Both the position numbers and the translations under genes were made by a program. Positions 6,476 to 27,236 of a stretch of 64,000 bases of DNA are shown piece by piece. Where the stretch lies: assembly GCA_025355465.1 (NCBI GenBank), contig JANXZO010000046.1, forward strand, positions 1 to 64,000, written 5' to 3'. The DNA is from Bacteroidales bacterium. GTDB taxonomy: Bacteria > Bacteroidota > Bacteroidia > Bacteroidales > FEN-979. Under the pieces are notes generated by a model. It ran no database searches, was not told where the DNA came from, and saw only the letters and a list, made by a program, of their open reading frames with translations. Each line of letters starts with the position of its first letter. Positions within the stretch are counted from its first letter, which is position 1.

Positions 6476-6512
6476 CATCCCTCTTTTGAACCCGGATCCA
6501 GAAATTGTTGTT

Positions 6513-7787: not shown

Positions 7788-7820
7788 GGGACATTTTTAC
7801 CATTATCATATCCTGCAGAG

Positions 7821-9160: not shown

Positions 9161-9475
9161 ATGAAAACAGAAAATTTAGGTGATTATATTAGACAGCTAC
9201 GAGAACAGGAAGAAATGCCACTACGCAAACTTGCTGCATTGCTCGATATTGACCAAAGCACACTAAGTAAATTGGAACGCGGAGCGCGACCAGTAAGCCG
9301 ACAAATGTTACCAATCATTGCAAAGACTTTTAAAGTGGACGAAAAAGAACTTGTCATAAAGTTCATGAGCAAACAAGTGGCTTATCAACTGGCAGACGAA
9401 AAATACGCTAAAGACATTTTGATTGCAGCAGAGGAAGAAATACAATACCTAACCAAAAAGAACGGTAGGAAGTAA
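9161..9475 (+). CDS. XRE-family HTH regulator (R-M controller-like)
   Basis: LGDYIRQLREQEEMPLRKLAALLDIDQSTLSKLERGAR; paralog of the protein at 3007-3327 including the C-terminal extension. Confidence 0.85.
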   Translation: MKTENLGDYIRQLREQEEMPLRKLAALLDIDQSTLSKLERGARPVSRQMLPIIAKTFKVDEKELVIKFMSKQVAYQLADEKYAKDILIAAEEEIQYLTKKNGRK

Positions 9476-10839
9476 TGGAGTTACAATTAGAAAATTTAAA
9501 ATATCAGGACACCGCTATTCAGGCAGTCATTAAGGTGTTTGACGGAACAGAGAAAAACACTTTTGACAATGCTTGCACTGAGGGTATACGTTCAAATGTT
9601 TGTAAACTAATCGCTTCGCAGTTAGCCGACAATATTAAAGCTATTGCAAAAGAAAACGGCCTTGACGAAGAAACGGCAAAGTATTCAGCCGATAACGATC
9701 TCTGCATTGAAATGGAAACGGGAACAGGTAAAACACTTGTTTACATAAAAACCATTTACGAGTTATACAAACACTACGCTTTTACAAAATTCATCATACT
9801 TGTTCCGTCAATTGCAATTAGACAAGGAACTTTAGGCACTTTCAAAACATTTGAAAAGCAATTAGCTACTATTTACGGCTTTACAGTTTCGGCTTTTGAC
9901 TATGACAGCAAGAAGCTGAACAAAGTAACCAATTTCATTGAAGAACAGTATCCGCGGGTTATGATTATGACAACTGGTGCATTTTCTTCTGACGACAGAA
10001 TTTTAAACCGAACCCAAAGAGAAGATTTGTTTAATAATTTGCCATACATTGACGCAATTGCAAAAGTGCGACCAATCATTTTTATGGACGAGCCACAGGA
10101 AGGAATGGACAGCGACAATATGGTGGAACGTTTAAAAACGCTGTCAGCAGAGGAAAGAAAAGAACGTTACAGTGAAAAAGCAGGCCAATCTGTTTGGGAC
10201 TATAATAAAACAGAAGGAACAGACCATAAATTTATATTGATACAAATTCCTGAAGCTACGGACGAGAATAGTGAAGCTTATAAAGCGGGTTACAAAAAGA
10301 TCAGCGACATCACCATTGAACGAAATAAACGAGTGGTTGGAAAACTCATTGAAGAAAAGAAAAAGCAACAACCAGACCTGTTTACCAACGGACACAAAGC
10401 CGATGCAATAAATGGTTTAGGCTTTAAAGTTTTCAAATTGGTAAAATCAAATTTCCCAAGAGTTGAATGGGCTCCCGATATTGAGAAAACAGACGAAGAA
10501 AATATTGCAACCCTGAAAAAATACATTGCCGACAAAGAAGCCCAATTGGTTACAGCATTCAACCGAAACGAATTGCTGACAGAGATTTTATTAAAAAGCG
10601 GTTTTCAACTAAACTACAAGGCCGACAAACAAGACCAGTTTACAAAAAACGAAATTTTATTAGCGACAGACGGATTAAAAGAAACCTTAATTTGTTTAGA
10701 TGTAGCAATTGATGCCGACACAGTAGAGCATTTCAAAAAGCACACAGACAAAAAATTCATTTGCCTTGAACGAGCCTTGGATACTACAAAGAAATACAAC
10801 CTGAAGCACTATTTAGGTGATAAGTTTAATGTGTTTTAG
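9475..10839 (+). pseudogene. In-frame chimera: N-terminal type III restriction helicase (Res) fused to C-terminal type III methyltransferase (Mod)
   Basis: Res part: DLCIEMETGTGKTLVYIKTIYEL (Walker A), FMDEPQEGMDSDN (DExx). Mod C-terminal part: HKFILIQIPEATDENSEAYKAGYKKISDITIERNKR and GFKVFKL...LLTEILLKSGF...FICLERALDTTKKYNLKHYLGDKFNVF. Confidence 0.75.
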
Positions 10840-10884
10840 GGAATTACAATGCAATTGCAGCTGATTTCCCGTCTCCTCAAGCCC

Positions 10885-12312
10885 ATGACAAAGAAGAATA
10901 CAGAGCGAATCCTGCTGCTACTTGTGGCTGCTGTTGCTGCAGGGCTGCTGGTGTGGTGGTTTCTCTACGATCCTTCGGGGAAATTCTCCCTCTCCGTGCC
11001 GGGGATGGACCACCGTAAAAAGGGGCTTCCGGGACAGGGGGCGCCGGTAAAGATCGGGACACTCTTCACCTCCTTTAAAACGGCTGACGATCAGCCCGGA
11101 ACCAGCTGGCCGCGCTTCAGGGGAGAGGATTTTACGAACATCAGCAAAGAGCAGCTCCCGCTGATCGGTAAATTTGCACAAGGCGGACCGAAAATATTGT
11201 GGAAGAAGACGCTTGGCGAAGGGCACGCAGCGCCTGCCGTTTACAAAGGAAAGATCTACCTGCTCGATTACGACGAGGTGAAAAAGGAGGACCAGCTCCG
11301 TTGCTTTATGCTGACGACCGGGGAGGAGCTGTGGCGCCGGGGTTATAATGTAAGATTGAAGCGCAACCATGGCCTTTCGCGCACCATCCCGGCGGTAACC
11401 GAGAAGTTTGTCGTAACCATGGGTCCGCGGTGCCAGGTAATGTGCGTCGACCGTGCCACCGGAGCTTACCGCTGGGGCATTGAACTGGACCGTGAGTACA
11501 AGGCCGAAATTCCCTTCTGGTACACCGGTCAGTGCCCGATGATCGATGGCGACACGGCCATCATCGCGGTGGGAGGAACTTCGCTGATGATCGCGGTCGA
11601 CTGCAACACCGGGAAAAAAGTGTGGGAGACCCCCAATCCACGGTCCTGGAAAATGTCCCACTCGTCGGTGATGCCCATGGTGGTGAACGGCCGGAAGATG
11701 TACGTATATGCTGCCATTGGCGGAATCTGCGGCATTGCGGCGAACGGCCCTGACCGAGGCAAGGTGCTGTGGGAGAATACGGAGTTCGGTCCGAACGTGA
11801 TGGCCCCTTCGCCTGTGGTGATGCCCGACGGGCTGATCTTCGTCACGGCCGGCTATGGTGCAGGCGGAGCCCTGCTGAAGATCCGGGAAACGGGCGGGAA
11901 ATTCACGGCGGAGGTAAAACAGCGGTACAAACCCCTGGAGGGGTTGGCTTCGGAGCAGCAGACACCGGTTTATCAGGATGGTTATCTTTACGGTATCCTT
12001 CCGAAAGATGCGGGAGGGCTGCGAAACCAGTTTGTGGGCTGCAAGGCCACAGACTGCCAAACGATCGTGATGAGCAGCGGCAAAGATGAACGGTTCGGAC
12101 TCGGACCATACATCCAGGCCGACGGAAAATTTTATATCCTGAACGACGACGGAGAGATGACCATTGCAAAGGTCACCCCCGGTTCTTTCAAGGTACTCGA
12201 TAAGGCAAAGATCATCGACGGGCAGGATTCGTGGGGCCCGATCGCCATTACGGGTGGGTATTTGCTGATGCGGGATTCGAAAACGCTGGTTTGTATGGAT
12301 GTCAGACAATGA
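10885..12312 (+). CDS. Membrane-anchored PQQ-like beta-propeller protein
   Basis: N-terminal TM; TSWPRFRGEDFTNIS...GGPKILWKKTLGEGHAAPAVYKGKIYLLDYD propeller blades. Confidence 0.85.
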   Translation: MTKKNTERILLLLVAAVAAGLLVWWFLYDPSGKFSLSVPGMDHRKKGLPGQGAPVKIGTLFTSFKTADDQPGTSWPRFRGEDFTNISKEQLPLIGKFAQGGPKILWKKTLGEGHAAPAVYKGKIYLLDYDEVKKEDQLRCFMLTTGEELWRRGYNVRLKRNHGLSRTIPAVTEKFVVTMGPRCQVMCVDRATGAYRWGIELDREYKAEIPFWYTGQCPMIDGDTAIIAVGGTSLMIAVDCNTGKKVWETPNPRSWKMSHSSVMPMVVNGRKMYVYAAIGGICGIAANGPDRGKVLWENTEFGPNVMAPSPVVMPDGLIFVTAGYGAGGALLKIRETGGKFTAEVKQRYKPLEGLASEQQTPVYQDGYLYGILPKDAGGLRNQFVGCKATDCQTIVMSSGKDERFGLGPYIQADGKFYILNDDGEMTIAKVTPGSFKVLDKAKIIDGQDSWGPIAITGGYLLMRDSKTLVCMDVRQ

Positions 12313-12328
12313 GCATTTAATGTAGCCT

Positions 12329-13303
12329 ATGAAACAACGGATCATTATTGGTATCGCCCTGTTGCTGCTTCTTGTGGTGATCGGGTTCATGGTGTGGGAT
12401 TTTTTCCTGAGCAGACCGGAAGGAGCCGCCAATCCTTACGCCTATGACCTGAGCGAGCTAAAAAAGAGCGACACTGCCCTCAACCGCTATGAAGAGGCAC
12501 TGCAGTTTACTCCCGGACTGGAGGAGATCCACGGTATTGCGGTGGATCCGGCCGGCAGGATCTTCGTGGCCGGAAAAAACGGGGTGAAGGTGTTTGACGA
12601 TTCCGGAAAGCTGTTACGGAAATTCAAATTCGACGGATATGCCGATTGCATCACCCTCGGCCTTTTCGGAAATATCCTGCTGGGGATGGGAGATCATGTG
12701 GAAATTTACAGTGCTGAAGGAAAACTCCTGGAAAAATGGAAGCCGGCCAATTCCGAATCGGTGATCACCAGTATAGCCGCTACGGGTTTGTTCGTTTTTG
12801 TGGCTGACGCGGGAGCGAAGGTTGTTTACCGGTACGACCACAGTGGAAAGCTCTTCAACCGGATCGGGGAGAAGGACCCCGAAAACAGGATCCCCGGGTT
12901 CATCATCCCGAGTCCGTATTTCGATGTATGCATCGGAAAAAAGGGGGAGCTCTGGGTGGCCAACACCGGCCGGCACGAACTGGAGCAGTTTTCGCCTGAC
13001 GGCAGGCTTGTTACCTCGTGGGGTGTTGCCTCCATGGCCATTGAAGGCTTTGCCGGTTGCTGCAACCCCTCCCACTTTGCCATCCTGGCCGACGGGTCGT
13101 TCGTCACTGCCGAAAAAGGAATTGAGCGGGTGAAGATCTACTCTCCCGGCGGCGTGTTGAAATGTGTTGTAGCCACACCCGAACAATTTGAAGAGGGAAC
13201 CAAGGGCCTCGATCTCGCAGTGGATCCGAAAGGGCGCCTCCTTGTGCTGGATCCGGTAAGGAATCAGGTCCGGATATTTGTTGAAAAACTGAAGAAAAAG
13301 TAA
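12329..13303 (+). CDS. NHL-repeat beta-propeller protein, membrane anchored
   Basis: IHGIAVDPAGRIFVAGKNGVKVFDDSGKLLRKF and YFDVCIGKKGELWVANTGRHELEQFSPDGRLVTSWG repeats; vicinal Cys in GCCNPSHFA. Confidence 0.8.
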   Translation: MKQRIIIGIALLLLLVVIGFMVWDFFLSRPEGAANPYAYDLSELKKSDTALNRYEEALQFTPGLEEIHGIAVDPAGRIFVAGKNGVKVFDDSGKLLRKFKFDGYADCITLGLFGNILLGMGDHVEIYSAEGKLLEKWKPANSESVITSIAATGLFVFVADAGAKVVYRYDHSGKLFNRIGEKDPENRIPGFIIPSPYFDVCIGKKGELWVANTGRHELEQFSPDGRLVTSWGVASMAIEGFAGCCNPSHFAILADGSFVTAEKGIERVKIYSPGGVLKCVVATPEQFEEGTKGLDLAVDPKGRLLVLDPVRNQVRIFVEKLKKK

Positions 13304-13306
13304 CCG

Positions 13307-13963
13307 ATGCTGAACAGGCGCGATTTTATTCAGACCCTTGTCCGCGGATCCATCCTCGCCGGCCTGACCCTGCTTACGGGGGCGTTGGTTTACCGCTCGC
13401 GCAAGGGAGGATGTGAATCGGGGTTTGCCTGCGGGAGCTGCCCAAAGTCTGACGGTTGCAATCTGGCTGAGGCCAAAGCCTTCAGGCAAACGGTGTGGCA
13501 GCTCGACCCCGCAAAATGTATCCAGTGCGGCCGCTGCGCCACCAACTGTGTGATGTCGCCTTCGGCCGTGAAGTGTTTTCACGTTTATGCCATGTGCGGC
13601 TACTGCGACCTCTGCGGAGGTTATTTTAAACCCGAAACCAAGGATCTCACCACGGCCGCCGAACATCAGCTGTGTCCCACAAACGCCATCAAACGCAAGT
13701 TCGTGGAGGATCCCTTTTTCGAGTACTCCATCGACAAGCCCCTTTGCATCGGTTGCGGAAAATGCGTTAAAGGATGTGGCGCTTTTGGCAACGGGTCGCT
13801 ACAGCTGCAGATCGACCACCACCTCTGCCAGAACTGCAACGAGTGTTCCATCGCCCGCAGCTGCCCGTCGGAAGCATTCAGCCGGGTACCGGCCGGCAAG
13901 CCTTACCTGCTGAAGAGTTTCGGGAAGGAGCTGTTGCCTGACAAGAAAACTACCTCCGGATGA
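13307..13963 (+). CDS. Tat-type exported multi-[4Fe-4S] ferredoxin
   Basis: N-terminal NRRDFIQTLVRGSILAGLTLLTGAL Tat-like signal; CIQCGRCATNC, CGYCDLC, CIGCGKCVKGC, CQNCNEC motifs. Confidence 0.8.
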   Translation: MLNRRDFIQTLVRGSILAGLTLLTGALVYRSRKGGCESGFACGSCPKSDGCNLAEAKAFRQTVWQLDPAKCIQCGRCATNCVMSPSAVKCFHVYAMCGYCDLCGGYFKPETKDLTTAAEHQLCPTNAIKRKFVEDPFFEYSIDKPLCIGCGKCVKGCGAFGNGSLQLQIDHHLCQNCNECSIARSCPSEAFSRVPAGKPYLLKSFGKELLPDKKTTSG

Positions 13964-15240
13964 AAGAGCGGATGAAAAAACTGTGCTGGATCCTGCTTTT
14001 TACCCTGGTTGTGGTGAATGGCTTTGCCGTACAGCGCTTCCCCAAGCCCGAATTCGAAACGGCCTACCTGCAGCCGCAAACCCACCAGCCTCCGCCCCGG
14101 GCCGAACTCCTGGCTGTGACAGATGTTGTGGTCCTCTTCCTGGCGCTCGCCGTCACCACCTGGCTGGTACTCAAACGCCGCTCCCGGATGGGGGTCTTCT
14201 TTATGTCGCTCGCGTCGCTGGCCTATTTCGGATTTTACCGGCAGGGGTGTGTCTGCTCCATCGGGGCGATTCAGAATGTGACACTGGCGCTCTTTGATCA
14301 CTCCTTTTTCATCCCGCTCACCGTCATCGCCTTTTTTATCCTGCCGCTGATCTTCACCCTCTTTTTCGGCCGTACCTTCTGTGCCGGGGTCTGTCCTTTC
14401 GGAGCGCTGCAGGACCTGGTGGCCTTCCGGCCTGTGAAGCTGGGTTCACGACTTAACGCTGTGCTGGGGATGATTCCCTATGTTTACCTGGGACTCGCTG
14501 TGCTTTATGCCGCCACCGGAACCGATTTCATCATCTGCCGGTACGACCCCTTCGTGGGAATTTTCCGGTTCGGCGCCTCCTTCGGGATGTTCATTTTTAC
14601 CGGGACGCTGCTGCTTTCGGGAATCTTCATTGCCCGCCCTTACTGCCGCTTCCTTTGTCCGTATGGGGTACTGCTCAACCGGACCAGCCGTTTCTCGCGG
14701 AAACATCTCACCATCACCCCCGCCGCATGCATTCAGTGCCGCCTTTGCGAAAACTCCTGTCCCTACGACGCCATCGACATTCCCGTGACCGGTAAAAACC
14801 CTATGGATAAGCAGCGCCGTATGCGGAACCTGATCTTCATCATCCTGCTTGTGCCGGTACTTGTTGGAATAGGCGGCTGGACCGGAGCACGGCTTCATGA
14901 GACCCTGGCCGGCGTCAACCCGAAGGTACGGCTGGCCAGCCTGGTGATGCATCCCGAATCCTATGCCGGGATGGCAGAACCCTTCGAGATCACCGCCTTC
15001 CGCTCCGCGGGCAAACCGGTTGCGCAGCTTTACGCCGAAGCCTCCTCCGTGCTCGGCCAATTCTATACCGGCGGCTGGATCCTGGGCGGATTTCTGGGAC
15101 TGGTATTCGGGCTGGTGATCGCCGGGAGGATGCTGGCGCGGTACAATCCCGATTATGTTCCCAACAAAGGCAACTGCTTCAGCTGTGGCCGCTGCGTGGA
15201 TTATTGTCCGGTTAAAGCCACAACAAATCCACCGTCATGA
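13960..15240 (+). CDS. NapH/NosR-like membrane polyferredoxin
   Basis: Multiple TMs with GRTFCAGVCPFGALQD and ARPYCRFLCPYG; CIQCRLCENSCPYD and CFSCGRCVDYCPVK clusters. Confidence 0.85.
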   Translation: MKERMKKLCWILLFTLVVVNGFAVQRFPKPEFETAYLQPQTHQPPPRAELLAVTDVVVLFLALAVTTWLVLKRRSRMGVFFMSLASLAYFGFYRQGCVCSIGAIQNVTLALFDHSFFIPLTVIAFFILPLIFTLFFGRTFCAGVCPFGALQDLVAFRPVKLGSRLNAVLGMIPYVYLGLAVLYAATGTDFIICRYDPFVGIFRFGASFGMFIFTGTLLLSGIFIARPYCRFLCPYGVLLNRTSRFSRKHLTITPAACIQCRLCENSCPYDAIDIPVTGKNPMDKQRRMRNLIFIILLVPVLVGIGGWTGARLHETLAGVNPKVRLASLVMHPESYAGMAEPFEITAFRSAGKPVAQLYAEASSVLGQFYTGGWILGGFLGLVFGLVIAGRMLARYNPDYVPNKGNCFSCGRCVDYCPVKATTNPPS

Positions 15241-17039
15241 GGAAGCTGGAACCGACCCCCCGGAACATCAGGCTGCTGCGTAACACCGCTACGGTGAGCG
15301 GGATCTTTGCCATGGTTCTGTGCGTGCTCATCCTCATCAACTTTCTTCAGGTAAAAAGGGCCGATCCGCTCAATACGCCGGCGTTGAAGATGCTGGTAGA
15401 ACGACTGAAATCTTCGCCCGGGGACAAGCAGCTTCAGCAGGAGGTGCGCGAACTCGACCTGGTGGCGCGAAAGGCCTTCTTTACCAGCCAGTGGCAGGTG
15501 CGCACCGGTGGCTATCTTCTCTTCTTCAGCCTGTTGCTGGTGATCATCTGTTTGAAGTCGATCGAAATGATGAAACCGGTTATTCCGGAACCTCCCGGCA
15601 AGGAGGATGATTTCTGGAATGAACGGATGCTGAACCGCAAATGGGTGGCATATGCCGGTATTACCCTGATCGTATTGTCGCTGGTGGCGGCATGGCTGAC
15701 CCACAACGAACTCGGGAACAACCTTCAGGCAGCCGCTTCCGGTGGTGCAATTTCGGAGGAGCCGGCAACCGGGGCAGCCTCTCCTTCAGGAAGCAGCGCT
15801 GTTCCGGCAGATTCAACCAGGGCCGACACAACGGCGAAGAGCGATACGGCAGCGGCTTCGAATCCGGTTGACGGTTTTCCGACGCTGAAGGAGATCCGGG
15901 CAAACAGCGCCTCCTTCAGAGGATTTGGCGGGAATGGTATAGATTTCCACACGAATCTGCCCATCTCCTGGGATGGCAAGAGCGGTAAAAACATCCTTTG
16001 GAAAACCGAAGTACCGCTTCCCGGATATAACTCTCCCATCGTTTGGAACGACCAGGTGTTCCTCTCCGGCGCCAGCGATGCAAAGCGTGAGGTGTACAGT
16101 TTCGATGCGAATTCCGGCAAGCTGAAATGGCGGTTTACCGTCGACAAAATTCCGGGAAGCCCGGCGGCCTCGCCGAAAGTCAACTCCGAAACCGGACAGG
16201 CGGCTCCCACCATGGCTACCGACGGACGCAGGGTTTACGCCATTTTTGCCAACGGCGACATGGTATCCCTCGATATGGAGGGAAAGAAAATATGGGCGAA
16301 GAATCTCGGATTGCCTGTAAACCATTACGGGCACTCCTCCTCCCTGATCATGTACCACGACATGGTTATCATTCAGTATGACCAGCGAAATGCCCCCTGT
16401 GTGATGGCATTGGCCGGAAAGAGCGGTGAGGTGGTATGGAAAACAGCCAGAAATGTGAAGATCTCCTGGGCCTCCCCGATCCTTGTGAATACAGGAAAAC
16501 GAACGGAGCTGATCCTGGTCGCGGAGCCTTCCATGAAGGGATACGATCCGGCTTCCGGGAAAGAGTTGTGGAGCATCGACTGTATTGGCGGAGAGGTGGG
16601 ACCTTCGGCAGCATTTGTCGGTGGAATAGCCTTCTCGGTGAACGAATATTCAAAGCTGGCCGCGGTGGAGCTGGGCGAGAACCCCAGGCTGCTGTGGGAG
16701 GGAACAGAGTATCTTTCGGATATCCCGAGTCCGCTGGCTACGGAAAAATACCTCTTCCTCCTCACCAGCTACGGAACGGCAGTTTGCTACGATGCAAAGA
16801 GCGGTGAGAAGCAGTGGGAAAAGGATTTTGGTAACCCCACCTACGCTTCGCCGATGCTGGCCGACGGGAAGATATATCAGATGGACAAGACCGGCATTAT
16901 GCACATCTTCAAACCCGATAAAGTGTATGCGTCGATTGCAGAACCCCAGCTGGGCGAGGGATCGGTGTGCACCCCGGCGTTCGGAGACGGAAGGATCTAT
17001 ATCCGCGGAAACCGGAATTTGTATTGTGTTGGAAGGTAG
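15237..17039 (+). CDS. Membrane-anchored PQQ-like beta-propeller protein with N-terminal TM domain
   Basis: Three hydrophobic N-terminal segments, Ser/Ala-rich linker, then FRGFGGNGIDFHTNLPISWDGKSGKNILWKTEVPLPGYNSPIVW propeller. Confidence 0.85.
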   Translation: MRKLEPTPRNIRLLRNTATVSGIFAMVLCVLILINFLQVKRADPLNTPALKMLVERLKSSPGDKQLQQEVRELDLVARKAFFTSQWQVRTGGYLLFFSLLLVIICLKSIEMMKPVIPEPPGKEDDFWNERMLNRKWVAYAGITLIVLSLVAAWLTHNELGNNLQAAASGGAISEEPATGAASPSGSSAVPADSTRADTTAKSDTAAASNPVDGFPTLKEIRANSASFRGFGGNGIDFHTNLPISWDGKSGKNILWKTEVPLPGYNSPIVWNDQVFLSGASDAKREVYSFDANSGKLKWRFTVDKIPGSPAASPKVNSETGQAAPTMATDGRRVYAIFANGDMVSLDMEGKKIWAKNLGLPVNHYGHSSSLIMYHDMVIIQYDQRNAPCVMALAGKSGEVVWKTARNVKISWASPILVNTGKRTELILVAEPSMKGYDPASGKELWSIDCIGGEVGPSAAFVGGIAFSVNEYSKLAAVELGENPRLLWEGTEYLSDIPSPLATEKYLFLLTSYGTAVCYDAKSGEKQWEKDFGNPTYASPMLADGKIYQMDKTGIMHIFKPDKVYASIAEPQLGEGSVCTPAFGDGRIYIRGNRNLYCVGR

Positions 17040-17054
17040 TGACAAAGTAAAAAG

Positions 17055-19412
17055 GTGACAAAGTACAACGATAATATTATTCAGCAGGTAGACCGGATCG
17101 TGGCTCGGTGTGGTCCCACTGTGGATGCTGTTATCCCGATCCTGCAAGGGATCCAGGAGGAGTTCAACCATCTGCCGGAGGCGGCCTTGAGGCGGGTATG
17201 TGAAACAACGGAGATCACACCGTCGCAGATCACGGGCATCTCCACCTTCTATTCCCAGTTCCGGCACAGCATTGCCGGGAAGCACATCATCAGGGTTTGC
17301 ACCGGAACCGCCTGTCACGTAAAGGGGGCCAACTTCGTTTACGATGCGTTCCGGCGTGAGATGAAACTGGAACCCGGCCAGGATACGGATGCTTCTGGAA
17401 TTTTCACCATCGAAAAGGTGGCCTGCCTCGGTTGCTGCACCATCGCCCCGGTGGTGAAGATCGACGACATGGTTTATGGACATGTTACTCCTGAAAAGAC
17501 GGGTGAGATCCTGAAAGACTTCCTGCAGAAACAGAGGCAAAACAAGGAAACAACCACCGGACTTCCGGTCGACGGACGGGCTTTTCAGGGTGAGATCCGC
17601 ATCGGGCTCGGCTCATGCTGCATCGCCAGCGGGAGTTCGGAGGTAAAGGCTGAACTGGAGAAGACGCTGGCCGGCACGCGGATCAATGTAGCTGTGAAGC
17701 AGGTGGGCTGCGTGGGCATCTGCAACCAGGTACCGATTCTGGAGATTGTGAAGCCCGGCGAGACCCCGGCCTATTATGCGAAGATCAAACCCGAAGAGGT
17801 TCGCGGTGTGATCCTGGATCATTTCCGGTCGGAAAGGATGAGCGATCGTCTGAAGACCGGTTTTATGAACCTCTTTGAGAACATGCTCTCCGACGGCGCC
17901 CCCAGGTCATTTCGCAGGTATAACGAAGACCAGCGCGACACGCCGCTGACCAGCTTCCTGGGGCCGCAGATAAATATTGCGACCGAGAACCGCGGGGTCA
18001 TCCGCCCCGGCGATATTGACGAATACCGGCGATCGGGTGGATTTTCGGCTCTCGAAAAATGTCACTCCGGGTTGTTGCCGCAGCAGGTCGTCGATGAAAT
18101 TTTAGCCAGCGGGTTACGTGGCCGTGGTGGCGCCGGCTTCCCCACCGGAAAGAAGTGGCAGCTGGTAAAGGATCAGGATACTACCGAAAAGTTCATCATT
18201 TGTAACGGCGACGAAGGCGACCCGGGCGCTTTCATGGACCGTATGCTGCTCGAATCTTACCCCTTCCGGGTGATCGAAGGGATGCTCATTGCGGCTTACG
18301 CAACAGGCGCAACCAAAGGAATTTTTTATATCCGGGCCGAATATCCGCTGGCCGTGAAAAGAATCGGCGATGCCCTGGCGGTTTGCCGTAAAGAGGGGAT
18401 CACCGGAACAGCTGATGACGGAAACGGGTTCGCCATCCAAATCCGCATCTTCGAAGGAGCCGGCGCTTTTGTTTGCGGCGAAGAGACCGCCCTGATCGCC
18501 TCGGTGGAGGGGCGGCGCGGGATGCCTGCCATGCGGCCGCCATACCCTGCCGTGAAAGGACTCGATGGCAAGCCCACCCTGATCAACAACGTGGAGACCC
18601 TCTCGCTGGCACCCTGGATCATCCGAAACGGTGCGGACAAATTTGCCGCCACCGGAACTGCCGGAAGCAAAGGGACGAAGGTCTTTGCCCTGGCCGGAAA
18701 GGTGAACCGCGGCGGACTGATCGAGATCCCGATGGGCATCACCATCCGCCGGATTGTTGAAGAGATCGGAGGTGGAATAGCCGGCGGCCGGAAGTTCAAG
18801 GCGGTGCAGATCGGCGGCCCGTCCGGAGGGTGTCTTCCTGCGTCGAAGGCCGACCTGCCGGTCGATTACGAAGCGCTCACTGCAGCCGGCGCCATGATGG
18901 GTTCGGGCGGACTGATCGTGCTGGATGAAACCGATTGTATGGTCGACATTGCCCACTACTTCCTCTCTTTCACCCAGAACCAGTCGTGCGGACGGTGTAC
19001 CTTTTGCCGTATCGGCACCCGCCGGATGCTTGAGATCCTCGAGAAGATCCGCTCAGGACAGGGAACAGATGCTGACCTTCACCATCTCGAACAATTGGCA
19101 AAAAGCACGCAGGCCGGGAGTCTGTGCGGTCTCGGAAAAACAGCCCCGAACCCGGTCCTCTCCACCCTGCATTATTTCCGGGAGGAGTATGAAGCCCATA
19201 TCCGTGGCCTCTGCCCGGCCGGTAAGTGCGCACCGCTGATCAGGTATCTGGTGAACGACAAATGCATCGGATGCACCAAGTGTGCACAGCGCTGCCCGTC
19301 GGACGCCATTGTCTATCAGCCCTATGAAAAACACACGATCGACCTGGAGAAATGTATCAAATGCGACATCTGCCGGCAAATTTGCCCTGTGGATGCAATA
19401 ACCATAAGCTGA
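17055..19412 (+). CDS. NuoE-NuoF-like fusion (NADH-binding flavoprotein) with C-terminal 2x[4Fe-4S]
   Basis: NuoE-like [2Fe-2S] (CTGTACHVKGA...CLGCC), second thioredoxin-like [2Fe-2S] domain, GRGGAGFPTGKKW / NGDEGDPGAFMDRMLLE, CGRCTFCRIGTRRM, CIGCTKCAQRCPSDAI, CIKCDICRQICPVDAI. GTG start. Confidence 0.9.
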   Translation: MTKYNDNIIQQVDRIVARCGPTVDAVIPILQGIQEEFNHLPEAALRRVCETTEITPSQITGISTFYSQFRHSIAGKHIIRVCTGTACHVKGANFVYDAFRREMKLEPGQDTDASGIFTIEKVACLGCCTIAPVVKIDDMVYGHVTPEKTGEILKDFLQKQRQNKETTTGLPVDGRAFQGEIRIGLGSCCIASGSSEVKAELEKTLAGTRINVAVKQVGCVGICNQVPILEIVKPGETPAYYAKIKPEEVRGVILDHFRSERMSDRLKTGFMNLFENMLSDGAPRSFRRYNEDQRDTPLTSFLGPQINIATENRGVIRPGDIDEYRRSGGFSALEKCHSGLLPQQVVDEILASGLRGRGGAGFPTGKKWQLVKDQDTTEKFIICNGDEGDPGAFMDRMLLESYPFRVIEGMLIAAYATGATKGIFYIRAEYPLAVKRIGDALAVCRKEGITGTADDGNGFAIQIRIFEGAGAFVCGEETALIASVEGRRGMPAMRPPYPAVKGLDGKPTLINNVETLSLAPWIIRNGADKFAATGTAGSKGTKVFALAGKVNRGGLIEIPMGITIRRIVEEIGGGIAGGRKFKAVQIGGPSGGCLPASKADLPVDYEALTAAGAMMGSGGLIVLDETDCMVDIAHYFLSFTQNQSCGRCTFCRIGTRRMLEILEKIRSGQGTDADLHHLEQLAKSTQAGSLCGLGKTAPNPVLSTLHYFREEYEAHIRGLCPAGKCAPLIRYLVNDKCIGCTKCAQRCPSDAIVYQPYEKHTIDLEKCIKCDICRQICPVDAITIS

Positions 19413-19413
19413 C

Positions 19414-20961
19414 ATGGTAAAACTGACGATTGATCACATCCCCGTTGAAGTTCCTGAAGGCACCACCCTGATGGAGGCTGCCGCACAACTGGGTATTCAG
19501 GTCCCGTCGATGTGTTACCTGCCGGGTCACCATTGTCACCCCTCCTGTATGGTTTGTCTGGTGAAAGACGTAGCCACTAACCGGCTGGTCACTTCCTGTG
19601 CCTACCCGGCTACGGAAGGAATGAATATCATCACCCACTCACCGGAAGTGCGTGAAGCCCGTCGCAAAGCGCTGGAACTCCTCCTCAGCGACCATGTAGG
19701 CGACTGCGAAGCCCCATGCCGTCTCTCCTGCCCGGCCGGTATGAACATTCCGCTGATGAACCGGCTGATCGCCGATGGAAGGTTTGATGAAGCGCTTGTC
19801 GTTGTACGCGAAGAGATCGCCCTGCCGCTGATCCTTGGCTATATCTGTCCGGCTCCCTGCGAAAAGGCCTGCCGTCGCAAACCGCTGGAGGGCGCCGTAT
19901 CCATCTGTCTGCTGAAAAGGATCACGGCGCAGGATGAAAAAAGACGAAATGAAGAGACGGGAATCCATCGCGTGATGAATGGCAAGAAGGTAGCCGTGAT
20001 CGGTACCGGGCCTGCCGGACTGTCGGCTGCTTTCTACCTGCTCAGATCGGGCCACGAGGTGGTGCTCTTCGACAAAAATGAACTCCCCGGAGGTATGCTC
20101 CGGTACAGCATCCCCGAAGAGAAACTCCCCCGTACTGCGCTGGATGCCGAGATCGCTGTGATCCGCGGGATGGGAGCTGTCTTCAGGATGAACAACCAGA
20201 TTACGCAGGAAATTTTAGAAGCGGAGGCAGAAGGGCATTTTGATGCGGTGATCCTGGCTACCGGGAGCGCCTCTCAGCAAGAATCACTTAAAAGCATGGT
20301 CGGCCTGCCTGCGGTTTTCGCCTGCGGAAACATTCTCCGCGACCAGCCATTGGCTGTACGTTCGGCGGCCCAGGGCAGGATGGCTGCGTGGGAGGCTGAG
20401 ACCTATCTGCAGACCCGGCATTTCAAACTGCACCCACCAAATTTCAATTCGGCGTTTGGAGTACTGAGAGAAAGTGAACTCGGAGAGTATATAAAAGAGA
20501 GTCTCCCTGGTGCAAGAACCTCGCCAGTTGCAGGTTATACTGGTGGTTTCACCCCGGCCGAAGCGATCCTGGAGGCACGCCGTTGCATGCATTGCGACTG
20601 CCGCAAACCGGTTACCTGCAAACTCCGTATCTACGCTGCCGAATACCAGGCAAACCGCAAACGGTACGCAGCTTCTGAACGGAAACAGCTGACCAGAAAT
20701 TTTCAACACGACCTCGTTGTTTATGAATCCGAAAAGTGCATACGCTGCGGCCTCTGTGTTGAGATCACCCGGCGCGAAGGGGAGGCGCTGGGTCTTACGT
20801 ATGTGGGCCGGGGATTTGATGTGAGAATCGTGGTCCCATTTAATGAAACGATGACCAATGCCCTGTTAAAGACTGCCCGGCGCTGTGCGGAGGCTTGTCC
20901 GACGGGGGCACTGGCCGATAAGAGTGACAGGGTCACAGCGAAAGAGGGCAAGAGGGATTGA
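19414..20961 (+). CDS. NuoG-N/GltD-like iron-sulfur flavoprotein
   Basis: [2Fe-2S] domain (HHCHPSCMVCLV), GltD-type Cys region (DCEAPCRLSCPAGMNIP...ICPAPCEKACRR), FAD site VAVIGTGPAGLSAAFYLLRSGHEVVLFD, C-terminal NuoG-like CIRCGLCVE...CAEACPTGALADK. Confidence 0.85.
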   Translation: MVKLTIDHIPVEVPEGTTLMEAAAQLGIQVPSMCYLPGHHCHPSCMVCLVKDVATNRLVTSCAYPATEGMNIITHSPEVREARRKALELLLSDHVGDCEAPCRLSCPAGMNIPLMNRLIADGRFDEALVVVREEIALPLILGYICPAPCEKACRRKPLEGAVSICLLKRITAQDEKRRNEETGIHRVMNGKKVAVIGTGPAGLSAAFYLLRSGHEVVLFDKNELPGGMLRYSIPEEKLPRTALDAEIAVIRGMGAVFRMNNQITQEILEAEAEGHFDAVILATGSASQQESLKSMVGLPAVFACGNILRDQPLAVRSAAQGRMAAWEAETYLQTRHFKLHPPNFNSAFGVLRESELGEYIKESLPGARTSPVAGYTGGFTPAEAILEARRCMHCDCRKPVTCKLRIYAAEYQANRKRYAASERKQLTRNFQHDLVVYESEKCIRCGLCVEITRREGEALGLTYVGRGFDVRIVVPFNETMTNALLKTARRCAEACPTGALADKSDRVTAKEGKRD

Positions 20962-21042
20962 GGGTGTGAGGGAAAGAGTAAATATTTTACCATTTTACAT
21001 TTGACTGAATACATAAAAATACATGAATCTAAAAAATCCGAT

Positions 21043-22161
21043 GTGAAAAGGATATTGTTTTTAACATTGATTTTTTTGATTGCGGTTGGTTCTGCCTTTA
21101 CCCAGCCGATTAGCGCCTCCTGCTGGCCTCAGTTTCGCGGAGATCCGCAGCTCTCGGGGAGTTCGCCGGCGGCAGTGAAACCTCCATACCGGTTGCTCTG
21201 GACCTTCAAGGCGGGTGATGCGATCAAATCGTCGCCGGTGATCAGCGATGGTGTGATCTATTTCGGTTGTGATGATGGATTCATTTACGCGCTGGGTTCC
21301 GGCGGTGAAGTGAAGTGGAAATTCAATGCGGGCACTTCCATCGAAGCAGCACCGCTGCTGCTGAAACATACGGTTTTTGTCGGGTCAACGGAGGGGGTGT
21401 TGTTCGCCATTGATGCAGCCACCGGAGCATTGAGATGGAAATATGTAACCGACGGACAGATCTCCGGTTCACCGAACTGGGTAGCCGGCCCGGATAAACG
21501 GCAGGCGCGAATTCTTACCGGTAGTTATGATTTCAATCTGCATTGTGTGGAGGCTGAAACCGGCACGGGCCTTTGGAAATTTGAATCGGGGAACTATATC
21601 AACGGATCACCCGCCTTGTTTGGCAAACTGGCCATCTTTGGCGGATGCGACGGTTTCCTGCATATGGTCAATACGGAGAACGGAAAACCGGTAAGCCAGA
21701 TCGATGTCGGAACCTATGTTCCCGCTTCAGCCGCGATATCAGGAAACAAAGCATATTTCGGAAATTACGACGGAGCGTTTTTCTGCGTGGATATCCGGGC
21801 GCAGAAAACGCTTTGGAAAACCGAAGGCGGAGGCCCTTTTCTGGCTTCGCCGGCAGTAGCCAAAGGCAAGGTGATCAGCGGGGCACAGAACAAATATCTT
21901 TATTGCTTCAATGCTGAAAATGGAGTGCTCCTCTGGAAATTCAAAGCCCTGGGCAAGGTGGACGCTTCGCCTGTGGTTGCCGGAAACCTGGTTGTAGCCG
22001 CCTCTGGCGACGGCCGGCTGCATGTGCTGGAGATCGGAACGGGTAACGAGATCTGGAGTTATGAAACCGGCAGCGCCATATTTACCACCCCGGCCGTGAC
22101 TTCAAAAATGATCGTTGTGGGGGCCGCCGACGGCACCCTTTACGCTTTCGGGCCAAAATAA
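21043..22161 (+). CDS. PQQ-like beta-propeller protein, secreted
   Basis: Hydrophobic leader; CWPQFRGDPQLSGSSPAAVKPPYRLLWTFKAGDAIKSSPVI; regular blades. GTG at 21043 preferred over the TTG at 21001. Confidence 0.85.
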   Translation: MKRILFLTLIFLIAVGSAFTQPISASCWPQFRGDPQLSGSSPAAVKPPYRLLWTFKAGDAIKSSPVISDGVIYFGCDDGFIYALGSGGEVKWKFNAGTSIEAAPLLLKHTVFVGSTEGVLFAIDAATGALRWKYVTDGQISGSPNWVAGPDKRQARILTGSYDFNLHCVEAETGTGLWKFESGNYINGSPALFGKLAIFGGCDGFLHMVNTENGKPVSQIDVGTYVPASAAISGNKAYFGNYDGAFFCVDIRAQKTLWKTEGGGPFLASPAVAKGKVISGAQNKYLYCFNAENGVLLWKFKALGKVDASPVVAGNLVVAASGDGRLHVLEIGTGNEIWSYETGSAIFTTPAVTSKMIVVGAADGTLYAFGPK

Positions 22162-23457
22162 ATGAAGATGAAAATTGTCAATATTGTTCCGGGATTCGGC
22201 GGGACCTTTTATTGTGGAAACTGCCTTCGCGACAGCGCCTACGTGGCATCCCTCCGCGAGGCCGGACACGATGCCGTAACCCTCCCGATGTACCTCCCGC
22301 TTACGATGCTCCACGAGCCGGGAGAGCAGGAGGTTCCGGTGTTTTACGGCGCCGTGGGGATCTATCTGCGGCAGTTTCCGGTGTTAAGAAATATGCCGGG
22401 ATGGCTGGAACAACTTGTCAACAGCCGTCCCATGCTCAAATATGCCGCAAAAAAGGCCGGCTCCACGCGCGCCCACGGGATGGAGAAACTGACCGAATCG
22501 ATGCTCCTGGGAAGCGAAGGACTTCAGCATCACGAACTTCAGCAGCTTGTCGATTTCCTGAAATACAACCTGAAACCCGATGTGGTTCACTTTTCAAATG
22601 CCCTCCTTCTCGGAATGGCACGTCAGATCCGCGAAGAGGTGGGAGTGCCCGTCGTGTTCTCGCTGCAGGATGAAGATGTATGGGTGGATGCCATGGATAT
22701 AAGCTACCGGGAAAAGATCTGGAAAATGATGTCTGATAAGGTGGCCGATGTGGATGCCTTTATTGCCGTGAGCGAATGGTTTGCACGGGAGATGCAGCAC
22801 CGGATGAAGATCCCCGACGAAAAGCTGCATGTGGTCCACATCGGTGTGAACCCCGGTAAATATAAGATCCGGAAGCCGCAGAACAATCCGCTTGCCGTCG
22901 GCTACCTCTCGAGGATCAACCAAGAGAACGGGTTTGAGGTGCTGGTTGATGCCTTCATCCTGCTGAAAACGGATCCCCGGTTCAAAGAATTAAAACTTCG
23001 TGCCACCGGAGGTATGACAGCCGACGACAAACCATTCCTGCGAAGGCAGATTGCAAAACTGGAAACGGCCGGTATCTCAGGCGACCTTGAGGTTCTTTAT
23101 GACTATGAAAATGTGGATCCGGATGATTTCTTCGCTTCCGTCTCGCTGATCTCGGTACCGGTTTTGAAGGGCGAAGCTTTCGGACTTTACCAGGCAGAGG
23201 CACTGGCGTCGGGCATCCCCCTCGTTCAGCCCGCCCTCGGAGCCTTTCCCGAGATCATCAGCACCTCAGGCGGCGGCGTGATCTATCAGCCCAATACCGC
23301 AAAGGCGCTGGCAGAAAAACTGGCAGAAGTGCTGGCGGATTACCCCGGGTTGGAAGCAATGGGAGCCAGGGGCCGGAAATCCGTTGAGGAGCATTTCGAC
23401 TGCCGGAAGATGACTGCGAAGATGGTGGAGATCTATCAGATGGTGAGAACGAGATAA
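22162..23457 (+). CDS. Family 4-like glycosyltransferase
   Basis: KIVNIVPGFGGTFYCGNCLRDSAYVASLREAGHDAV; C-terminal EAFGLYQAEALASGIPLVQPALGAFPEII nucleotide-sugar site. Confidence 0.85.
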   Translation: MKMKIVNIVPGFGGTFYCGNCLRDSAYVASLREAGHDAVTLPMYLPLTMLHEPGEQEVPVFYGAVGIYLRQFPVLRNMPGWLEQLVNSRPMLKYAAKKAGSTRAHGMEKLTESMLLGSEGLQHHELQQLVDFLKYNLKPDVVHFSNALLLGMARQIREEVGVPVVFSLQDEDVWVDAMDISYREKIWKMMSDKVADVDAFIAVSEWFAREMQHRMKIPDEKLHVVHIGVNPGKYKIRKPQNNPLAVGYLSRINQENGFEVLVDAFILLKTDPRFKELKLRATGGMTADDKPFLRRQIAKLETAGISGDLEVLYDYENVDPDDFFASVSLISVPVLKGEAFGLYQAEALASGIPLVQPALGAFPEIISTSGGGVIYQPNTAKALAEKLAEVLADYPGLEAMGARGRKSVEEHFDCRKMTAKMVEIYQMVRTR

Positions 23458-23476: not shown

Positions 23477-24178
23477 ATGCTGGCGGAACTTAAAGATATT
23501 TACAAAAGCTACGAAACAAACTCACGGTTGCAGGGGGAGGACCGGCAGCGGAGCCTCGTTCTCGATGGGTTGTCGCTGCAGATTCCGGTTGCCGGATCCA
23601 TCGCCATTGTGGGGCCTTCGGGTTCGGGAAAAAGTACTTTGCTGAATATTCTGGGAACACTCGACCGGCCCACATCGGGAGCTGTGATCCTTAACGGAAA
23701 AAATATCTCAGATCTGGCAGAGGATGAACTCCCGACAATCCGGAACTCCTTTATCGGATTCGTTTTCCAGCTGCACCACCTGCTTCCCCAGCTCACTTTG
23801 CTGGAAAATGTTCTGCTTCCGGTGTTGCCGCAAAACAATAAACTGGTGATGAAGCAGGCAACGGAACGGGCTATCGGACTGCTCGAAAGGGTCGGACTGA
23901 AGGAGCATCTGACCAGGCATCCTTACCAGCTTTCGGTTGGTGAGTGTCAGCGGACGGCGCTCGTTCGGGCGCTGATCAACCGTCCGAAATTGTTGCTGGC
24001 CGACGAGCCAACCGGGTCGCTGGATGCAAATAACGCCACACTGCTCGGGGAACTTATGTCAAGCCTGGGAAAAGAGCAGGAATCTGCGGTGGTTGTGGTA
24101 ACACACGCTTCGGAGCTGGCTGCAAGGATGGACGAAACCTACCGGCTGACCGGTGGAAAACTAAACCGTATCCCCTGA
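23477..24178 (+). CDS. ABC transporter ATP-binding protein (MacB/LolD-like)
   Basis: GPSGSGKSTLLNILGTLDRPTSG Walker A; LSVGECQRTALVRALINRPKLLLADEPTGSLD. Confidence 0.9.
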   Translation: MLAELKDIYKSYETNSRLQGEDRQRSLVLDGLSLQIPVAGSIAIVGPSGSGKSTLLNILGTLDRPTSGAVILNGKNISDLAEDELPTIRNSFIGFVFQLHHLLPQLTLLENVLLPVLPQNNKLVMKQATERAIGLLERVGLKEHLTRHPYQLSVGECQRTALVRALINRPKLLLADEPTGSLDANNATLLGELMSSLGKEQESAVVVVTHASELAARMDETYRLTGGKLNRIP

Positions 24179-24179
24179 G

Positions 24180-27100
24180 ATGAATTACTGGCGGCTGATC
24201 TCCCGGAATCTTGCATACTACCGCCGGCCATACCTTGCGGTGCTGGCTGGCGTGGTTGTAAGTACAGCCGTTCTTACAGGAGCGCTCATGGTAGGCGATT
24301 CGGTTCGTTACAGTCTGGAAAGGATGACCGATCAGCGGCTTGGAAAAACACGGGTTGCCGTAGTCCCCGGAGAACGGCTTTTCCGGCAGATGCTAGCGGC
24401 GGATATTTCCCGGAACGCCGGCGTCATCGCGGTGCCCATCCTGAAAACCAATGGCATCGCCGTATGTGAAGAAAAAGGTACCCGGATCAACCGAGTTGAG
24501 ATCATCGGGGTGAGTGACCCGTTCAAAGAATTATGGGAGGAGCGTATCCTCATCCCGGGTGAAAATGAGGTGGTACTCAGCCAAAATGCAGCTGCCCGGT
24601 TGATGGTCTCTGTAAATGATGAGGTCCTGATACGGATAACCCCAGTTGAAAAGGCATCTCCCAATGCTCCTTTTGTTCCCGACCGGGCCGACCCGGTGGC
24701 CTTACGTTTGAGGGTAATTGCCATCGCCGGCGACGATAATGGTGGCAGGTTCAGTTTAAAAAGCGAGCAGTCCGCACCCCTCAATTTTTTCGTAAACCTT
24801 CACCAGCTTTCAGCCCGGCTCAAACTTGCCGGTATGGCAAACGCAATATTGGCGACAGGCAACAACGAAGGAACACTGACCCCGGCAGAACTCGACAGCC
24901 TGACCGGCCAGAATTGGCAGATGGCAGATGCCGGCCTGAAGATCAGTGCGCTTGATCAGCCGGATACCTGGGATGTCACTTCCGGCCGGATCTTCCTCAG
25001 CCCGGAACAGTCGCGGGCCATCGCCGCGGCCATTCCCAATGCCACTCAGGTTCTCACCTACATGGTGAATTCCATCTCCGATGGAGTGCTCTCAACGCCT
25101 TACTCCTTTGTAACAGCAGCCGATTCATCCATGCTTCACCTCCAGCCGGGTCCCCGTGAGATCCTTATCAACCGCTGGCTGGCCGGGGACCTGGATGCGG
25201 TTCCCGGAGATATGGTTAATCTAACCTATTGGGTGATGGGGCCAATGCGTTCTTTGAAGGAGGAGAGCGCCAGGTTTTTCGTCAAGGCCATCGTGCCGGT
25301 TGATGCGGTTTCGTCAGGCCGAAGGCTGATGCCCGATTTCCCGGGAATGTCGGGGGCCGGAAACTGCCGCGACTGGGAAACCGGCTCCCCGGTGGATCTC
25401 TCCCGGATCCGCAAACAGGATGAAGATTACTGGAAAGATTACAGAGGAACCCCCAAGGCGTTCATCAGCCTGAACACAGGACAAAAACTCTGGGCCAATG
25501 CTTTCGGAAATGTCACAGCCTTCAGGTTCAGGGCTGCCGGAACAGAATTGCCGAAGCTGAGCCGGGCGGTAATGCATCAGCTTCATCCGCTGCAAAACGG
25601 ATTGGTATTCCGGCCGGTTTACGAGGAGGGGAGAGCGGCCGCAGGTCATCCCACCGACTTCGGACAGCTTTTTCTCGGACTTAGTTTTTTCATCCTTGCT
25701 GCTGCCCTGCTCCTCACAGCCCTGCTCTTTTCGCTGCATATCTCCGGCCGCATTTCCGAAGCCGGGGTTCTGGCAGCTACCGGTTTCAGCCGGTCGCTCA
25801 TATACCGCCTGCTGATGGGGGAAGCACTCCTTGTGGCGCTGGCCGGAACCATTCTGGGAGCCTTGTCCGGGATCCCCTGCAATGCCCTTTTGCTGGCCGG
25901 GCTGAACACCCTCTGGTCAGGTGCCGTGCAGACCTCCTCGCTGGTGGCCTGTATCCGCATGCCGACACTTGTTACAGGCGCCCTGGCCGGACTCATCACG
26001 GCCATCCTTGTGATGATGCTTGCCCTTCGGCGGAAACTAAGGTTGCCAATTGCCTTGCTTGTTAAAGGGGCCCACCAACCGTCCCGGAAAACGGGTCTTC
26101 ACCGGCCGCGCAACATCGCAGCCGTTGCCCTCCTGGCGCTGGGAACTTTCGCTGTTGTGGTTACAGGGGCCAACCGGAAGGGTGAGAACAGCGAAACCGG
26201 CAGGAGTTCGGGAACAGGCGGTTTCCTGCTCTGGGCCGAATCCACCCTTCCCGTGCTGAAAGATCTGAATTCCGTTGAGGGGAAGAAGAGCCTCTCACTG
26301 GAGGATGAACCGGTCCTGAAGGGGGTCACCTTTATTCCGCTGCAGCGGCTGGAGGGTGATGATGCCAGCTGTCTCAACCTCAACAGGGTGTCAGATCCGC
26401 CGCTGCTGGCTGTTCCCGCTACCCTTTTTGATTCGCTGGGTTCATTCACGTTCAATGCCCTGGCACGCGATGTCGACCCGGCTCACCCCTGGAGGACGCT
26501 GACTCAAAACGACACTCCGGTAGTCAATGGGTTTGCTGATATGACCGTCATCACGTGGGGTTTGCAGAAACAGATCGGGGATACGCTCCGGTATACTGAT
26601 GAGAGGGGAAACAAGGTGCTCGTGAGGTTGGCGGGCGGACTGGACAACTCCCTTTTCCAGGGTAATGTCCTGATCTCCGATGTCCGGTTCCGTCAGCTCT
26701 TCCCTTCCGTGGCCGGGTCGCGGTTGATGCTGGTGGAAGGACCTGCACCGAAACGTGATTCCATCGCTTCAAGACTCGAAGCGCTCCTGCGCGATTACGG
26801 GATGCTGGCCGTTCCTGCGGCAGAAAAGCTGGCATCGTTCAACGCGGTAGAAAATACTTATCTCACCGTCTTTATGATGCTCGGCGGACTCGGAATGATC
26901 ATCGGTACCATCGGCCTGGGGATCATCCTCTGGCGCAATACCCGTGAACGGATGGCAGAATTTGCCCTGCTGAGGGCACTCGGACATCCGAAGCGGCGGA
27001 TTATGAGAAGGCTGGTCAGGGAATACCTGCACATCCTGATGGCCGGGACCGGGTTAGGTTTCGGCGGTGCATTGCTGGTGTTGCTCCCGAACTTTTTCAT

Positions 27101-27236
27101 TCCGGGATACCACTTTCCCTTTGTGTGGGTATCAGCCATACTCCTCCTCATCCTGGGTTCCGGTTTTGCCTGGATTTGGGCTGCAGCTGAAAAATCGATG
27201 CGGCGGGAGATTGTTACCGACTTACGCGAGGAGTAA
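24180..27236 (+). CDS. ABC transporter permease (large FtsX/MacB-like)
   Basis: N-terminal TM, large extracytoplasmic domain, clustered C-terminal TMs; 2 bp downstream of the ATPase stop. Confidence 0.85.
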   Translation: MNYWRLISRNLAYYRRPYLAVLAGVVVSTAVLTGALMVGDSVRYSLERMTDQRLGKTRVAVVPGERLFRQMLAADISRNAGVIAVPILKTNGIAVCEEKGTRINRVEIIGVSDPFKELWEERILIPGENEVVLSQNAAARLMVSVNDEVLIRITPVEKASPNAPFVPDRADPVALRLRVIAIAGDDNGGRFSLKSEQSAPLNFFVNLHQLSARLKLAGMANAILATGNNEGTLTPAELDSLTGQNWQMADAGLKISALDQPDTWDVTSGRIFLSPEQSRAIAAAIPNATQVLTYMVNSISDGVLSTPYSFVTAADSSMLHLQPGPREILINRWLAGDLDAVPGDMVNLTYWVMGPMRSLKEESARFFVKAIVPVDAVSSGRRLMPDFPGMSGAGNCRDWETGSPVDLSRIRKQDEDYWKDYRGTPKAFISLNTGQKLWANAFGNVTAFRFRAAGTELPKLSRAVMHQLHPLQNGLVFRPVYEEGRAAAGHPTDFGQLFLGLSFFILAAALLLTALLFSLHISGRISEAGVLAATGFSRSLIYRLLMGEALLVALAGTILGALSGIPCNALLLAGLNTLWSGAVQTSSLVACIRMPTLVTGALAGLITAILVMMLALRRKLRLPIALLVKGAHQPSRKTGLHRPRNIAAVALLALGTFAVVVTGANRKGENSETGRSSGTGGFLLWAESTLPVLKDLNSVEGKKSLSLEDEPVLKGVTFIPLQRLEGDDASCLNLNRVSDPPLLAVPATLFDSLGSFTFNALARDVDPAHPWRTLTQNDTPVVNGFADMTVITWGLQKQIGDTLRYTDERGNKVLVRLAGGLDNSLFQGNVLISDVRFRQLFPSVAGSRLMLVEGPAPKRDSIASRLEALLRDYGMLAVPAAEKLASFNAVENTYLTVFMMLGGLGMIIGTIGLGIILWRNTRERMAEFALLRALGHPKRRIMRRLVREYLHILMAGTGLGFGGALLVLLPNFFIPGYHFPFVWVSAILLLILGSGFAWIWAAAEKSMRREIVTDLREE

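Follow-up and report, generated by a model that had tools for sequence, protein, structure and literature searches.

The window, a 64,000-nucleotide stretch of DNA from a Bacteroidales bacterium, appears to encode a variant Bfu-family enzyme in a gene cluster for which we found no description in the literature, nor one of the combination of Bfu with NapH. The protein encoded at 19414-20961 (the 19414 protein) is probably a BfuA subunit that lacks the NADPH domain and serves as an iron-sulfur wire joining the Bfu core, encoded by the fusion gene at 17055, to a third partner other than NADPH. We use mini-C as a label for the 19414 protein and its homologs without the NADPH domain. The features of the locus are:

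10849..12312, + strand: P1, PQQ/BamB-like beta-propeller with an N-terminal anchor
12329..13303, + strand: NHL-repeat beta-propeller with a conserved GCCNP motif and an N-terminal anchor
13307..13963, + strand: FdG, NapG-like ferredoxin with a conserved Tat motif (RRxF) and 16-18 conserved Cys
13960..15240, + strand: polytopic membrane protein, NapH/MauN-like, with two CxxxCP and two 4Fe-4S motifs
15237..17039, + strand: P2, PQQ/BamB-like beta-propeller with three N-terminal hydrophobic segments
17055..19412, + strand: EF, BfuC-BfuB (NuoE-NuoF) fusion of 785 aa with all BfuBC ligands, predicted to be an FMN electron-bifurcating core
19414..20961, + strand: mini-C, BfuA-type subunit of 515 aa (Pfam, phmmer against the PDB, AlphaFold2)
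19975..20418, + strand: FAD Rossmann domain of mini-C, about residues 188-335 (sequence, alignment, AlphaFold2)
21001..22161, + strand: P3, PQQ-like beta-propeller with an N-terminal hydrophobic segment, probably secreted
22162..23457, + strand: family-4 glycosyltransferase, conserved cluster member
23477..24178, + strand: LolD-like ABC ATPase, conserved cluster member
24180..27236, + strand: FtsX/MacB-type permease, conserved cluster member

The 19414 protein contains a single Rossmann domain

The open reading frame of the 19414 protein has no internal stops. Read from sequence, its domain order is a NuoG-like [2Fe-2S] domain, a GltD-type Fe-S domain, an FAD Rossmann domain, and His-Cys3 and N4-type [4Fe-4S] sites. 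Pfam placed Fer2_4 at residues 1-76, Fer4_20 at residues 98-177, and Pyr_redox_2 at residues 191-288, the last covering profile positions 1-112 of 291 only; a weak Fer4_Nqo3 match at residues 434-500 fell under the Pfam cut-off. In phmmer alignments against the PDB, residues 7-289 matched residues 9-291 of StnC (8oh5_C), and residues 300-504 matched StnC 465-675. The approximately 173 StnC residues without a counterpart are the NADPH Rossmann domain, which is present in 9bov_A and 9n5u_A, and everything past StnC residue 675 (the FdhF-like domain) is also missing. AlphaFold2 gave a poor model when run on 17 sequences (pLDDT 61), and an 82-row alignment was used instead. The resulting model (mean pLDDT 94.3, pTM 0.92) contained one Rossmann domain, with elements at 192-334, and no second dinucleotide-binding domain. 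The top Foldseek matches of this model were 9bov_A, 8oh5_C, and 9n5u_A (TMq 0.81–0.82). An earlier note, made from the sequence, had proposed that the protein lacks an NAD(P)H-binding Rossmann domain, and the gap in the StnC alignment, Pfam, the AlphaFold2 model and the homologs described below all confirm this; the size it gave for the missing part (~130 residues) was too small, the loss being nearer 170. Its NuoG-like N-terminus was likewise borne out by Fer2_4, but the C-terminal region that it had described in similar terms holds only one NuoG-N4-type [4Fe-4S] motif (C442, C445, C448, C495), where StnC has a two-cluster ferredoxin.

The Sporomusa ovata transhydrogenase StnABC (8oh5; PMC10482914) has the same arrangement as mini-C, with the NuoG N-terminus, the GltD-type Fe-S and FAD domains, and the His-Cys3 and N4-type sites in the same order, and its StnAB corresponds to EF. 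Compared with StnC, mini-C lacks the NADPH domain, the FdhF-like C-terminal domain and clusters C1 and C2, does not conserve the equivalent of R239, and has gained a near-invariant Cys165; compared with StnABC as a whole, BfuC and BfuB are fused and the genes are set in a NapGH/beta-propeller cluster. The NfnABC enzymes of Thermococcus sibiricus (9n5u) and Caldicellulosiruptor (9bov) rank with the best matches to mini-C in both sequence and fold. The T. sibiricus subunit resembles mini-C in having no second ferredoxin cluster, but the large subunits of NfnABC keep the full NADPH domain, and PMC9304861 showed that NADP(H) is the third substrate of T. sibiricus Nfn-Bfu. The closest NCBIfam model, at residues 2-287, was PRK12814 (putative NADPH-dependent glutamate synthase small subunit), with a score of 371 against a cut-off of 916; this 657-position model spans the NADPH-domain region missing in the 19414 protein. 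GltD, the glutamate synthase small subunit, combines FAD and NADPH domains and partners glutamate synthase, whereas mini-C has no NADPH domain and partners BfuBC.

Loss of the NADPH domain in a multi-phylum family

Among 60 related genomes, many carried a homolog of identical architecture. Scanning 84,980 species genomes gave 80 loci, of which 76 lack the NADPH domain, in Bacteroidota, Aminicenantes, Planctomycetota, Hydrogenedentota, Kiritimatiellota, Spirochaetota, and Lentisphaerota. Isolates among the mini-C carriers included Draconibacterium orientale, Maribellus sediminis, and Marinifilum. The NADPH domain was missing in 97 of 101 aligned homologs and kept in L126, L127, L129, and L130. 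In a tree built by a quick method without bootstrap on the Fe-S and first FAD segments that the sequences share, one branch (SH-aLRT 100) had all the NADPH-bearing sequences on the same side, so that a single loss suffices; the domain was most likely lost in one ancestral event. The window's own genome has a separate, complete StnABC (StnC of 1242 aa), also seen in five related genomes sampled, and NADPH transhydrogenation is thus already covered. At one locus (L123) the C gene and its neighbors are found as an inverted duplicate on one contig (3286-4668 and 11837-13219), possibly an assembly palindrome.

The iron-sulfur ligands are conserved across the 97 mini-C sequences: C34/45/48/62, H94/C98/C396/C402, C102/C106/C391/C394, C145/C149/C153, and C442/C445/C448/C495, where single cysteines were assigned to individual clusters by reading motifs. 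The exceptions were alignment gaps where ends are truncated, a single masked residue, and the highly divergent L124, which has lost three ligands; members with a degenerate FAD domain keep the ligands as well. As a set these residues match the on-path StnC clusters C7-C3, with the off-path C1 and C2 gone (PMC10482914). For this path, which leads from the FAD domain to the core, the window protein has the full ligand set, near-invariant in the family. The minimum of a BfuA subunit, a 2Fe-2S and a 4Fe-4S ferredoxin domain, is represented by Fer2_4 and the sub-threshold Fer4_Nqo3, again with near-invariant ligands. The new cysteine at residue 165 lies three residues before the Lys (StnC K170) that can coordinate C7; position 165 is Arg in most FAD-degenerate mini-C.

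Mini-C resides in a conserved gene cluster

Across several phyla the order P1-NHL-FdG-NapH-P2-EF-C recurred, usually followed by P3, the glycosyltransferase, the LolD-like ATPase, and the FtsX-type permease. Of the mini-C loci, 67 had an upstream flank of 8.6 kb or more; EF was found there in 64, P2 in 63, NapH in 63, FdG in 61, NHL in 61, and P1 in 59; some of the absences are contig ends or FdG-NapH fusions, FdG and NapH being in one open frame in three genomes. P2 and FdG occurred in an identical set of 35 of 61 genomes, the mini-C carriers. Of the NADPH-bearing loci, three had sufficient flank, and at these EF was the only one of the upstream partners found; none of these partners was seen at six Stn loci inspected by eye. 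The cluster was split in a few genomes, with C-P3-GT-ABC-permease apart from EF (L084, L091) or C apart from the cluster (L069). At L084 and L091, where the locus has no EF, this half is preceded by genes resembling those of heme biosynthesis (hemN/hemY/hemH by eye).

None of the NCBIfam models listed for the cluster members reached its cut-off; NapH scored 53.8 bits against TIGR02163 (cut-off 213), and the beta-propellers matched generic PQQ/BamB and NHL models only. The polytopic NapH-like protein and the Tat-exported multi-cluster ferredoxin resemble NapGH/MauMN, which are quinol dehydrogenase or ferredoxin-type pairs. Such pairs are usually linked with NapAB or methylamine dehydrogenase, whereas the pair in this cluster is tied to a bifurcating module and beta-propellers.

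Two further candidates for the partner of C were dropped, each being carried by only a few loci. One is a dicluster ferredoxin of the L060 type, 267–293 aa long, which recurs near the cluster in Bacteroidota and Planctomycetota (L060:11636-12436, L098, L100, L101, L070, L110); the other is a thioredoxin-like protein (Pfam Thioredoxin_3) between EF and C in Draconibacterium orientale (L074:9501-9959). Upstream of the cluster in the window, three tandem secreted PQQ/BamB-like beta-propeller paralogs are encoded at 5261-9035 (+ strand), and similar ones precede P1 in many relatives. Between these paralogs and the redox cluster lies a 454-aa stretch from the N-terminus of a type III restriction Res subunit (9475-10839, + strand; model 986 aa), a fragment or insertion that stops 10 bases before P1.

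Retention, erosion and deletion of the FAD domain

The GxGxxG, GG, and ATG motifs were intact in 81 of 97 mini-C, and most Bacteroidota members keep the FAD domain with intact GxGxxG and GG motifs, so the domain may well have a flavin function there; in the window's own lineage FAD binding is plausible. The domain is nevertheless altered. The Arg near the flavin N5 (StnC R239, NfnB R201) is K in the window protein and K/E/V/R/L across the family, being lost in most mini-C, including those whose domain shows no other damage. The third-motif Asp (GD Asp) is N/S/T/G in 79 of the 81 otherwise intact members. Both residues are kept in 4/4 NADPH-bearing relatives and in three solved structures. A further 16 members have lost the second or third motif; starred branches support at least two independent origins of this loss, and the best tree has as many as five or six. 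The whole domain is deleted in the 323-aa C proteins of two genomes, G059 and G061 (loci L137:9797-10765 and L140), which are 91% identical to each other. In these lineages at least, FAD is dispensable to the conserved function, because the Fe-S ligands were kept while the whole domain was lost, and in G059 all Cys/His ligands are present and the gene cluster around the gene is complete.

These observations bear on the role that the earlier note had favored, a flavin electron relay. In such a scheme FAD, no longer facing NADPH, would act as a one-/two-electron gate between C7 and a docking protein or small molecule. The intact motifs in most members and the confidently predicted FAD fold speak for this role, and C165 and K168, on the C7 side, co-occur with intact FAD motifs (Fisher p 1e-10 and 4e-8 with no correction for kinship). 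That association was dropped as evidence, however, since it comprises only 3–6 independent pairs on the tree and is unsupported after kinship correction. Given also the lost Arg and Asp, the repeated decay of the motifs, and the complete deletion in G059 and G061, we consider a flavin relay unlikely, though the strongest of the alternatives. The proposal finds only partial support, a relay not being what the family as a whole conserves.

The NuoEF fusion has the hallmarks of a bifurcating core

EF matched the BfuB subunits of NfnABC and StnABC with E-values from 1e-201 to 1e-192, and its N-terminus is a BfuC thioredoxin-like [2Fe-2S] domain (PF01257, E 2e-47) with C82, C87, C124, and C128 as ligands of cluster C1. 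Using the Bfu ligand list of PMC9304861, we located ligands for B1 [4Fe-4S] (C645/648/651/691), all five for B2 (C593, C628, H715, C720, C725), those of the C-terminal clusters B3 and B4 (C737-747 and C767-777), and those of the N-terminal [2Fe-2S] cluster B5 (C188/189/219/223). Each BfuB ligand was kept in at least 76 of 81 EF homologs and most in 80–81 (C628 in at least 93%); the B2 His, H715, was present in 81/81. According to PMC9304861, the B2 His is typical of bifurcating BfuB, and non-bifurcating homologs lack both it and B2-B5. By these hallmarks EF would be an electron-bifurcating BfuBC core, its activity being predicted. In the B5 motif, EF has a second Cys at residue 189 (window 17619-17621; GSCC, against GSCG/NSCG of StnB/NfnB), which is invariant in 81/81 homologs, whereas five of them have Ser in place of the usual Cys188.

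Bifurcation is absent from many NuoEFG-like complexes, and EF-C could in principle be a simple NADH:acceptor oxidoreductase in which C is mainly a scaffold. This is improbable, as B2-B5 and the B2 His are all near-invariant in EF and a scaffold would have no need for near-invariant Fe-S ligands. The partnership with NuoEF suggested earlier holds, given the frequency of EF at mini-C loci and the binding of StnB to StnC in the solved complex (PMC10482914), but to regard C as fed by EF undersells a partner with every sequence feature of a bifurcating BfuBC core.

The excision junction

The point at which the NADPH domain was excised is bracketed by 'DAVILATGS' (near residue 285) and 'GLPAVFACGN' (near residue 297). 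Loss of the domain would leave the flavin exposed on its isoalloxazine side, and an FAD site performing redox chemistry on another small molecule (e.g., a quinone, an F420-like cofactor or a disulfide) through the vacated NADPH cleft could be imagined, with the several variable insertions at the junction in its favor. We give this very little weight, since across relatives the junction is hypervariable and partly low-complexity, with no conserved new pocket, and FAD is dispensable in G059 and G061. The window copy is shorter than its relatives at this point by a further ~16 residues (the 'FGLxxDExGxxxxKxTFxT' segment), as an assembly artifact or local deletion of a normal GltD/StnC might produce, but such an origin is rejected as next to impossible because the same domain is missing in ~97 homologs from independent assemblies, including the isolates Draconibacterium orientale and Maribellus sediminis.

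Discussion

The evidence is best accommodated by the BfuA subunit of a HydABC/StnABC-type Bfu complex, pared down to an iron-sulfur wire. Its ancestor would have been an NADPH-type (StnC/NfnA) BfuA from which the NADPH domain was excised once. The FAD domain would then have become optional, kept but altered in most Bacteroidota and decayed or deleted elsewhere, while selection would preserve the Fe-S wire that runs between the core and the GltD-type clusters, which are C6/C7 by StnC numbering. With the NADPH domain gone, NADPH cannot be the third substrate, in line with the view of the earlier note that the protein does not serve as an NADPH reductase.

BfuA subunits, in the Bfu scheme, move electrons to or from the third substrate, and the co-inherited candidates for this role here would be NapH and FdG. 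The conserved NapH-like protein, NapG-like ferredoxin, and beta-propellers in the cluster suggest that the third partner is a trans-envelope electron conduit. NapH is a membrane protein whose 4Fe-4S motifs are presumably cytosolic, and FdG would be exported. Electrons would most likely pass between the mini-C wire and the NapH-like protein together with the Tat-exported FdG; we infer this contact from genomic association. The complex could thereby couple cytoplasmic NADH and reduced ferredoxin to a trans-envelope redox process involving the beta-propellers. We prefer an outward flow, from NADH and reduced ferredoxin to the envelope, with the beta-propeller proteins as a putative endpoint, either as terminus or as regulators. 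Bifurcation by EF-C is itself predicted from ligand conservation.

Relative to the Bfu family as presented by Schut et al. (2022; PMC9304861), the system shares the full BfuBC core ligand set and a BfuA with the shared Fe-S core, but its third-substrate domain has been removed, and its association with NapGH-like proteins and beta-propellers is unnamed in the main text of that paper. The BfuB tree given there comprises 57 clades; 17 BfuB clades are without assignment in the main text, which names no NapGH-type partner. We regard it as an evenly balanced proposition that mini-C loci represent a widespread Bfu class, bifurcating or confurcating between NADH/ferredoxin and the envelope through a NapH/NapG conduit and beta-propellers, whose BfuA shed the NADPH domain and later, in certain lineages, the FAD domain too, with a bare Fe-S wire remaining.

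Bfu enzymes are one of four known electron-splitting families, and the mini-C family is a concrete multi-phylum candidate for an envelope-wired bifurcating enzyme. Its natural deletion series, from NADPH and FAD domains through FAD only to neither, makes it possible to ask whether StnC-type subunits need their flavin for electron transfer or for NADPH chemistry alone, and the cultured Prolixibacteraceae and Marinifilaceae among its carriers make the system experimentally accessible.
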